Source: Candidatus Mcinerneyibacteriota bacterium (lineage in GTDB: Bacteria > AUK180 > JAQVHJ01). From it: a stretch of 5,193 nt of DNA. Positions 786 through 4,799 of the stretch are shown piece after piece. The notes under the pieces were generated by a model that had not been told where the DNA came from, searched no databases, and worked only from the letters and a program-made list of their open reading frames with translations. The stretch spans positions 1-5,193 of the forward strand of contig DAOVMD010000253.1 in assembly GCA_030630935.1 (NCBI GenBank), in the 5' to 3' direction. Position 1 is the first letter of the stretch. Every line of letters starts with the position of its first letter. Made by a program: the position numbers and the translations under genes.

Positions 786-814
786 TTGACTTTTTCAATT
801 AAACATGCTATAAT
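786..814 (+). promoter_or_regulatory. Strong sigma70-type promoter of the marR operon
   Basis: TTGACT at 786-791 (five of six consensus bases) and a perfect TATAAT at 809-814 are separated by exactly 17 bases. The -10 is preceded by TG plus one base (806-808), the extended -10 signature. Transcription is expected to start around 821, leaving a leader of about 76 bases before the first gene. This is the best promoter in the window and the only clear one reading into the five-gene operon. Confidence 0.85.
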
Positions 815-2612: not shown

Positions 2613-3185
2613 ATGTCAAAAGTAAAAGGTGGCACAATAAAGTCGAGAATAAACTTTATTAAGGAGACCTACGGGCAAAAGGGTTTAGATTTATTATTAA
2701 ATTCATTACCCGTAGAAGATCAGGGAATTTTAAGTGGAATACTTTTATATTCGTCCTGGTATCCATTTGAACTTTATGAAAGACTTGATAATGCAATTAA
2801 AGAGAAGTTAGCACCTGTTGATAAACATATCTATGAGAAGATGGGTGCATTTTCTGCAAGAACACATTTAAGTACTATCTATAAATCGTATCTAAAAGAA
2901 AATAACCCAATGGCGTTCTGTAAAATCTTTCATAATATCTTTAAAAGTTATTATGATTCAGGTCGAGTTGAAATGGAAGAGCTGTCCCCACATGCAGTAA
3001 TCTTCCGAATTTATGATTTTGCAAGTCCTTCACGTCAGGATTGTGAGAGTAATATTGGTTATATTAGAGAAGGACTAACAATTTGCGGTGCAAAAAATCC
3101 CAAAGTGCTTGAATCAAAGTGTAGAGTAAAAGGTGCTGATTATTGTGAAATCTCAATCCCTTGGGAGCCGAATGAAGAAATTTAA
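2613..3185 (+). CDS. V4R/DUF2378-like small-molecule-binding protein with a Cys-Glu-Cys-Cys zinc-site pattern
   Basis: This 190-residue soluble protein has no signal peptide, membrane span or DNA-binding domain. The N-terminal half is helical (about 10-115), with the WYP (49-51) and aromatic/Leu pattern I associate with the DUF2378 (TIGR02265) family known from myxobacteria. The C-terminal part (about 118-186) ends in ESKCRVKGADYCEISIPW, the typical end of V4R/heme-NO-binding-like domains. C144, E167, C170 and C178 give the spacing C-x22-E-x2-C-x7-C. As I recall, the zinc site of phenol-sensing MopR/PoxR uses Cys155, Glu178, Cys181 and Cys189, the same spacing. V4R domains bind small hydrophobic ligands and are often fused to regulators; here the domain is not fused to an output module. 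AAGGAG at 2601-2606 sets the start. It sits between two transporter genes, which suggests a ligand-binding accessory or sensor. The family call is good; the role is inferred. Confidence 0.78.
   Translation: MSKVKGGTIKSRINFIKETYGQKGLDLLLNSLPVEDQGILSGILLYSSWYPFELYERLDNAIKEKLAPVDKHIYEKMGAFSARTHLSTIYKSYLKENNPMAFCKIFHNIFKSYYDSGRVEMEELSPHAVIFRIYDFASPSRQDCESNIGYIREGLTICGAKNPKVLESKCRVKGADYCEISIPWEPNEEI
3163..3174 (+). promoter_or_regulatory. Shine-Dalgarno site and ATG that decide the MFS gene start
   Basis: GGGAG at 3163-3167 lies four bases before ATG 3172-3174, inside the last codons of the V4R-like gene. The frame is also open from an earlier GTG at 3133, but that codon has no comparable ribosome site and would add 13 residues that merely shadow the conserved C-terminus of the upstream protein. 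The ATG opens a basic leader (MKKFKAQ), typical of an MFS N-terminus. Confidence 0.65.
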
Positions 3186-4425
3186 AGCACAAATTTCTGA
3201 ATATATATCACATATTAAATTATTTAAAAAAAACGCACGGATTTATCTTTATTCAGGTTTTCTAATTGGAATTAGTTTTTCGGGATTCAGATTATTATAT
3301 AATTTATTTTTAAAGGAGCTTAATTTTTCTGAAGAGATAATGGGGAAACGATTAGCAATATTTTCGTTAGGTTCATTAGTAATTGCCATACCTGCTACAT
3401 TGTCAGCAAAGAAAAATAAATTCAGTACAATTTATATGATATCCTTAGCAATCCTTTTTCTTTCCTGGTTATCACAAGCATTTTTTACTAATTTAATCCC
3501 ATTATTCTCAGCATCATTAATAGGGGGGATGTTCATGACATATTATTCAGTTGCAGTTGCTCCATTTATAATGAGAAACTCCACAGATAAAGAAAGAACA
3601 CATCTATTTAGTTTTAATTTTGCAATTATGCTTTTATCAGGTGTTGTTGGCAGCATTATTGCCGGGTTCCTCCCTGATATTTGTGCAAACTTTACTGATT
3701 CAAAAATAGAAACCCTGAGAATGTCGCTTGTAGTGATATCCGGAGTTTCATTATTAGCATTTTTACTTATCCCAAAAATAAAAGAATTAAATAGAGTTCA
3801 TGAAAAAGACATTCGACTCGCGGATATTTTTAAAATTAAGAACCCCTTACTTTTATTTAAAATTACACTTCCCGCATTTATAGTTGGTATGGGAGCCGGA
3901 ATGATTATTCCATTTATGAATTTATACTTTAAGGATAGAATAAAGCTGGAGATTAATCAGATTGGAATTATCTTCTCTATCACTCAACTTTTCATGTTCC
4001 TGGGAATCTTACTTGGTCCGCCATTAGCAAAGAAATTCGGGAAGATTAGAACAGTCGTGATCACACAATTTCTATCTATTCCATTTATGTTAATATTAGC
4101 ATTTTTTAATCAGTATTTTCTAGTTGCACTTGCATTTTTTATGAGAGCTGCTTTTATGAATATGGCTCAACCTCTTACTACAGCTTTTGCAATGGAATTA
4201 GTTCCAAAAAATGAACAGGAAATAACCAACAGTACTTTAATGGTTGCCTGGACTTTCTCATTGGCGATTAGTACTGCAATCGGGGGAAAGTTAATAGCTA
4301 CATCAGGCTTTACAATACCGCTGATTATTGCATCAGGATTATATGTTTTATCAAGTATGTTTTATTTCTTATTCTTTTTTAAAACTGAAAAAATTACTCG
4401 GGTGGTCGAATGCTCTGGAAATTAA
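3172..4425 (+). CDS. Major facilitator superfamily transporter, 12 membrane spans
   Basis: From the chosen ATG the protein has 417 residues, standard for a 12-TM MFS carrier of the inner membrane. Spans lie near 24-46, 57-78, 85-105, 108-130, 148-168, 183-202, then a charged central loop (about 203-227, KIKELNRVHEKD) and 228-253, 262-283, 292-311, 315-336, 355-375 and 380-403. A motif-A-like sequence, GPPLAKKFGKIR (282-293), falls in the loop between spans 8 and 9. The matching loop between spans 2 and 3 is reduced to LSAKKNKFS. GKRLAIFSLGSLVIAIPA at the second span and QPLTTAFAMELVP (333-345) are typical of prokaryotic drug/metabolite MFS proteins. The gene overlaps the V4R-like gene by 14 bases and FxsA by 16, implying coupled translation. 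Uptake or efflux cannot be told from sequence; MarR control favours efflux, but weakly. Confidence 0.92.
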   Translation: MKKFKAQISEYISHIKLFKKNARIYLYSGFLIGISFSGFRLLYNLFLKELNFSEEIMGKRLAIFSLGSLVIAIPATLSAKKNKFSTIYMISLAILFLSWLSQAFFTNLIPLFSASLIGGMFMTYYSVAVAPFIMRNSTDKERTHLFSFNFAIMLLSGVVGSIIAGFLPDICANFTDSKIETLRMSLVVISGVSLLAFLLIPKIKELNRVHEKDIRLADIFKIKNPLLLFKITLPAFIVGMGAGMIIPFMNLYFKDRIKLEINQIGIIFSITQLFMFLGILLGPPLAKKFGKIRTVVITQFLSIPFMLILAFFNQYFLVALAFFMRAAFMNMAQPLTTAFAMELVPKNEQEITNSTLMVAWTFSLAISTAIGGKLIATSGFTIPLIIASGLYVLSSMFYFLFFFKTEKITRVVECSGN

Positions 4426-4799
4426 TTTTAGCTTTTACAGTTATCCCTATAATCGAATTATATATTCTTCTAATGCTGGCGGATTTAATAGGACCGCACA
4501 TCACTATCCTGATAATCATTCTTACCGGGATAACCGGCGGGATATTAACAAAAGCACAAGGTCTCAATACAATCAAAAAGATAAAAACACAATTAGCAGA
4601 AGGAGATGTTCCAACAGATGAATTATTAAATGGATTATTAATTTTATCAGGGGGATTGTTATTATTAACACCTGGGATATTAACAGACCTAACTGGGTTC
4701 ACCTTGTTGATACCTTTTACAAGAACACCAATAAGGAATTTTCTTAAAAAGAAATTTAAGAAAATTATAGAAAAGAATACAATTACATTTAATCAGTAG
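4410..4799 (+). CDS. fxsA: FxsA-family cytoplasmic membrane protein
   Basis: The 129-residue product matches FxsA throughout: VIPIIELYILLML (11-23) as the first span with the PIIELY signature, a second span at about 28-46, then the amphipathic TKAQGLNTIKKIKTQLAEGDVPTDELLNG stretch (47-75; conserved QG, EG.VP.DEL), a third hydrophobic part LILSGGLLLLTPGILTDLTGFTLLIP (77-102) with the hallmark LLTPGxLTDxxG, and a Lys-rich cytoplasmic tail (109-123). In E. coli, FxsA is an inner-membrane protein whose overproduction relieves F-plasmid exclusion of phage T7; its normal function is unknown. The ATG lies inside the 3' end of the MFS gene, preceded by GGGTGG (4400-4405), so translation is probably coupled. 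It is the last gene of the operon. The family assignment is secure, while the reason for its place beside two transporters is not. Confidence 0.94.
   Translation: MLWKLILAFTVIPIIELYILLMLADLIGPHITILIIILTGITGGILTKAQGLNTIKKIKTQLAEGDVPTDELLNGLLILSGGLLLLTPGILTDLTGFTLLIPFTRTPIRNFLKKKFKKIIEKNTITFNQ

Follow-up and report, generated by a model that had tools for sequence, protein, structure and literature searches.

The window, the whole stretch of 5,193 nucleotides analysed here, opens with a partial gene for a TatD-type nuclease on the reverse strand (3-575; QatD model below threshold, 128 versus 230 bits), which diverges from an operon on the forward strand. A promoter-like site, TTGACT-17-TATAAT with an extended -10 (786-814, forward strand), matches at 11 of 12 positions, and adjoining its -10 lies an imperfect palindrome (817-863, with 19-nt arms at 817-835 and 845-863) that is a candidate MarR operator. 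The first gene of the operon encodes a MarR-family transcriptional regulator of 151 aa (897-1352; Pfam MarR, 6.9e-10). It is followed by genes for a transporter-like DUF401/TIGR00529 membrane protein (1354-2595; Pfam DUF401, 2.1e-47; TIGR00529 below its cut-off), a 190-aa protein that we describe below as a heme-less H-NOX-fold protein with a predicted V4R-type zinc quartet (2613-3185), an MFS transporter (3172-4425; Pfam MFS_1, 4.2e-30), whose gene begins with ATG at 3172 and shares its first 14 nt with the preceding gene, and an FxsA-family membrane protein (4410-4799; Pfam FxsA, 4.3e-32), whose gene overlaps that of the MFS transporter by 16 nt. The sequence-only reading of this DNA had placed the gene at 2613-3185 between two transporter genes under a MarR-type repressor, and the Pfam assignments bear this out; the operon extends beyond the genes named there to include that of the FxsA-family protein.

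The same order of five genes is found in a sister genus (L036/L055) between different flanking genes. In L036 the MarR orthologue occupies the corresponding position and is 54% identical, and the DUF401, MFS and FxsA products are 61, 64 and 64% identical, respectively; the H-NOX-like protein, at 73%, is the operon's most conserved product between the two genera. Since the promoter-like site and the palindrome lie upstream of the MarR gene and are both conserved in the sister genus, the arrangement fits an autoregulated MarR operon. Outside the two genera of family f1, this gene context is not conserved. In the phylum's other family (L133-L137), DUF401 adjoins three NAD-dependent epimerase-like genes, not MarR or MFS, and therefore the link between DUF401 and an H-NOX-like gene is confined within the phylum to the two f1 genera. 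Small lipoprotein-like ORFs lie beside DUF401 in three of these five loci.

The gene at 2613-3185 has its own start and stop and carries neither an AAA+ nor a DNA-binding fusion; an HTH is likewise absent from the 190-aa product, which, as had been claimed, has no output domain. Four residues of its C-terminal half are putative zinc ligands: Cys144 (codon 3042-3044), Glu167 (3111-3113), Cys170 (3120-3122) and Cys178 (3144-3146), all read on the forward strand. They stand where the sequence-only reading had put them, and their spacing, C-x22-E-x2-C-x7-C, is indeed that of the phenol sensor MopR gap for gap (alignment with PDB 7vqf/5kbe) and that of plasmid MobR, whose C154/E177/C180/C188 correspond to the quartet in a gap-free profile alignment. 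The solved MopR chain also aligned with the family profile without gaps in the quartet region. The motif arose in 24 of 200,000 composition-preserving shuffles of the protein; because of this low frequency, and because relatives mostly retain or lose the four sites in concert (see below), a chance origin of the motif is unlikely.

The profiles that had been suggested for comparison, HNOB, V4R and DUF2378/TIGR02265, all matched the protein and all below threshold. HNOB was the best Pfam match (18.5 bits, E 0.0019, gathering cut-off 25.5), followed by V4R (16.2 bits, E 0.011, gathering cut-off 31) and DUF2378 (12.5 bits, cut-off 22.2); TIGR02265 scored 12.7 bits against a cut-off of 25. Other members of the family reached 7.6e-7 for DUF2378, 6.4e-7 for TIGR02265 and 2.6e-5 for V4R, and one quartet-bearing relative (L063) exceeded the Pfam DUF2378 cut-off (27.7 versus 22.2). 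In profile-profile comparison against ten H-NOX domains from other genomes the family profile gave an E of 3.3e-14 over 158 columns (hhalign), whereas against MobR-type V4R it gave 6.5e-6 over 55 columns of the V4R half alone, an alignment that is reliable only in these C-terminal 55 residues.

A single-sequence search of the PDB with the window protein yielded nothing useful. A first model built from three sequences (pLDDT 70.7) found the same families as later, with a poor rmsd to full H-NOX; addition of one partial relative raised the pLDDT to 84.3 (AlphaFold, pTM 0.83, four sequences). This second model superposed on Nostoc H-NOX over 172 of 182 residues at 2.6 Å (VIA Z 16.8), with a Foldseek TM of about 0.75. 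Bet3/TRAPPC3 structures came next in the fold search at a Z of about 10, palmitate-bound TRAPPC3 among them. A viral-structure library gave no match with an E of 0.001 or lower. A phage origin of the gene was rejected, since neither phage records nor viral contigs contained a match. The N-terminal half, which the sequence-only reading had called helical, is so in the predicted model (helices 6-29, 34-40, 43-47, 52-65, 73-89 and 99-113), but it forms part of the H-NOX fold and is no add-on of unknown kind; the model thus suggests a complete H-NOX fold over the whole length. From the positions of the predicted helix 144-157, which Cys144 begins, and of strands 167-172 and 175-183, the quartet would fall at the place of the V4R and H-NOX zinc sites. 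The proposed likeness to V4R therefore holds for the C-terminal half and the quartet, while over its full length the protein is closer to H-NOX.

The heme-binding histidine of H-NOX is replaced here. The MAFFT and hhalign alignments agree in placing the proximal histidine on Phe110 (codon 2940-2942, forward strand), and among 88 non-redundant relatives, collected by searching whole genomes with the window protein and alignments built on it, this column holds Trp, Phe or Tyr in 60 and His in four. Heme binding is not expected, since Phe110 stands at the heme-histidine position, the nearby H107 is unconserved and the Y-x-S-x-R motif is missing from the H-NOX-equivalent place; the only similar string, YDSGR, lies elsewhere, at 114-118. 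That the protein is nonetheless an ordinary heme-containing gas sensor would be in keeping with the shared fold, with HNOB as the best (sub-threshold) Pfam match and with H107 lying a single helix turn from the heme-histidine position. The sister orthologue, however, has Asn in place of H107, the family does not conserve a histidine there, and H-NOX proteins are said to keep the heme histidine without exception (PMC7108781). We consider this reading hardly credible, and an identity as heme H-NOX was rejected on the missing proximal histidine.

The cysteines of the H-NOX zinc site do have counterparts. H-NOX proteins of the zinc-bearing groups (HNOB, PF07700), such as those of Shewanella oneidensis, Vibrio cholerae and Caulobacter, share with the window protein the whole fold and homology at the profile level over the full length. 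S. oneidensis H-NOX has a three-cysteine zinc site, C-x21-H-x2-C-x7-C, at the same place as the quartet, with C139, H161, C164 and C172 as ligands (PMC7108781). The three cysteines of the window protein fall in the same columns as the zinc-site cysteines of H-NOX; its fourth residue is Glu, and some relatives have His or Gln there. Zinc-bearing H-NOX proteins are unfused and act in trans, and the window protein is likewise unfused. It differs from them in its heme site, in having Glu in place of His/Gln as the putative fourth ligand and x22 in place of x21, in falling below the HNOB cut-off and in its neighbours: neither a histidine kinase nor a cyclase, the usual H-NOX partners, is encoded in the operon. 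When their zinc cysteines are oxidised, the H-NOX proteins of V. cholerae and Caulobacter become inhibitors of their histidine kinases, with zinc retained, and in V. cholerae this inhibition works without heme (PMC7108781, PMC12329717). A Glu-containing quartet, C-x21-E-x2-C-x7-C, occurs in five of the ten heme H-NOX domains from other genomes (L144, L146, L149, L150 and L151), whereas the literature gives His or Gln as the fourth ligand.

The phenol-sensor framing of the sequence-only reading did not survive this comparison. The V4R domains of MopR, PoxR, DmpR and MobR share the identical motif, without gaps over the C-terminal 55 residues; those proteins, however, have XylR-N, AAA+ and DNA-binding domains that the window protein lacks, and its N-terminal half is H-NOX-like. 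W134 of MopR, which anchors phenol and is invariant in the MobR-type alignment, has no counterpart among the only two tryptophans of the window protein (W49 and W184). The other phenol anchor of MopR, H106, falls outside the 55 residues over which the alignment can be relied on. A V4R phenol sensor was rejected on the low V4R score, the missing Trp and the lack of an output domain, and H-NOX is the better relative over the full length. In the phenol sensors, the zinc is credited with keeping the structure intact (PMC10715001). In MsvR, a redox-sensing repressor of methanogens, C206, C232 and C240 are 26 and 8 positions apart, as are C144, C170 and C178, and a C206A substitution abolishes the redox dependence of DNA binding (PMC3729527). 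MsvR carries its DNA-binding half in the same chain, whereas the window encodes MarR as a protein of its own, two genes upstream of the H-NOX-like gene. The cysteines of H-NOX and MsvR on the one hand, and the zinc site of the phenol sensors on the other, thus provide precedents for such a site as a switch and as a structural element alone. Bet3/TRAPPC3 shares the superfamily fold; it lacks the full N-terminal part of H-NOX and has another ligand set and function, zinc being bound in Asgard TRAPPC3 through four cysteines (PMC10933270). DUF2378/TIGR02265 proteins are of the same size as the window protein, and several members of its family match them; they have no listed function and are described as exclusive to myxobacteria (PMC9257966), while the window protein itself scores below threshold and is encoded in an operon with MarR and transporter genes.

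Relatives were found in 39 of 386 sampled genomes, at least one in each. The window's own genome has eight further paralogues, and all seven genomes of its phylum have several members each. Most relatives are unfused proteins of 180-210 aa, and V4R is reported to occur "either by itself or fused" (PMC2253512); the unfused state, which the sequence-only reading had set against the fused MopR/PoxR sensors, is thus common. Among the 88 relatives, the quartet is exact in 18 and ligand-compatible in 26 (Glu replaceable by His or Gln, and the final Cys by His), while 50 have none of the four residues. The sites co-occur pairwise with a Fisher p of about 4e-9 or smaller, a value in which kinship among the 88 relatives is still included. 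On the tree, about seven changes of quartet label are needed, at least four of which are forced by well supported branches, and therefore the quartet was gained or lost as a block several times. Quartet-bearing proteins of other phyla are joined on the tree by the window protein and its orthologue (73% identity; support 96/79), which do not group with the paralogues of their own genomes; nearly all of these paralogues form a separate quartet-less clade (99/98). The window's genome has a tandem array of three quartet-less H-NOX-like paralogues at L040:7129-8871 (G000:C404) and a tandem pair, likewise quartet-less, downstream of a 1314-aa cyclase-AAA-TPR protein at L043:6792-7919 (G000:C471). 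Quartet-bearing members in other phyla have no common neighbour, and the unfused ones adjoin unrelated genes. One distant quartet-bearing relative (L022:244-2106, reverse strand) is fused to GAF and HD-type domains, a possible readout for a sensor half, and this fusion lends support to a signalling role for the superfamily.

Conservation of the quartet in homologues, on which the sequence-only reading had made its claim depend, is accordingly divided: the set is absent from all eight own-genome paralogues, yet the sister-genus orthologue has it, and so, as a unit, do the relatives of other phyla that cluster with the window protein. The paralogues, which are presumably functional without it, might suggest that the quartet is a fossil, inherited with no present function. 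Its retention in a 73%-identical orthologue and in distant relatives, and its loss mostly as a block, which is unexpected of neutral positions, make such a fossil very improbable. Taken together, the data argue strongly that the protein is a member of the H-NOX/V4R/DUF2378 superfamily in which the H-NOX fold is complete, the heme histidine has been lost and a putative C-terminal Cys-Glu-Cys-Cys metal site has been kept.

As to function, we tentatively favor a zinc/thiol sensor that acts in trans on a co-encoded partner as the likeliest role, somewhat short of an even chance; of the roles proposed in the sequence-only reading, that of a sensor working through another protein survives. The explanation of the locus as a whole that we regard as best, at nearly an even chance, is a heme-less H-NOX-fold zinc-thiol switch acting in trans within an operon that is an export module. 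Its support comes from the predicted fold, the homology, the coupled quartet and the missing heme histidine, and from conservation of the operon together with its promoter and operator-like palindrome. A single zinc would tie helix 144-157, at its first turn, to the C-terminal strands, and oxidation or modification of the zinc cysteines would rearrange this C-terminal end; the response of the cysteines may be tuned by a hydrophobic ligand occupying the pocket left by the heme. The rearranged end would then alter contact with a partner protein in trans, much as heme-free H-NOX acts on its histidine kinase and the V4R half of MsvR on its own DNA-binding half. The likeliest partners would be the co-encoded MarR repressor or the transporters, and the operon would be a stress- or compound-responsive export module to which the H-NOX-like protein adds a second signal. 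In this scheme we infer the zinc itself, the redox response, the partner and the direction of export. Against it, MarR proteins usually sense ligands by themselves and need no helper, the operon lacks the usual H-NOX partner genes and its context is limited to two f1 genera.

The main rival holds that the zinc is structural only and that a hydrophobic or aromatic compound is bound in the pocket left by the heme; the protein would be a carrier or sensor that passes this compound on to the MFS pump or to MarR. The fourth ligand weighs in its favor and against a redox switch, Glu being found in the structural zinc site of MopR (PMC10715001) and His/Gln in redox-active H-NOX. V4R proteins are also thought to bind hydrophobic molecules and to signal in cis or in trans (PMC2253512), a palmitate-bound protein figures in the fold search, and a MarR regulator and an MFS transporter are neighbours. 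The missing counterpart of the phenol-anchoring Trp speaks against this rival, however, and the bulky aromatic residue at the heme position may close the pocket; we judge it rather unlikely, though to be taken seriously. A special case of the trans-acting switch, with MarR as the partner, would be an MsvR split in two, the H-NOX-like protein and MarR together forming one redox repressor encoded in halves. By analogy, the three cysteines at MsvR spacing and the presence of both genes in one operon with a conserved palindrome would suit it, as would weak matches to the MsvR model, of MarR to positions 24-94 and of the H-NOX-like protein to 144-235. These matches, at 14.8 and 11.7 bits, are nevertheless far below the NCBIfam cut-off of 220, and the 151-aa MarR is already a complete protein, which leaves a split MsvR improbable.

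If the trans-acting zinc-thiol switch is the right reading, the window protein would belong to a widespread branch of H-NOX that has dispensed with heme and uses the zinc-thiol switch only, as a dedicated sensor of oxidants or electrophiles with trans control over a MarR-regulated transporter operon, with the zinc-site-less paralogues sensing or binding other things; in this full form the proposal is speculative and we think it possible but unlikely. Relatives in roughly a tenth of the sampled genomes, tied to H-NOX by fold and profile, suggest as a family hypothesis an H-NOX without heme, so that a large uncharacterised protein family becomes testable. One metal/thiol site, putative here, would connect H-NOX, V4R and MsvR, and a naturally heme-free case may serve to test whether the oxidation response of the H-NOX zinc cysteines is a signal in its own right.
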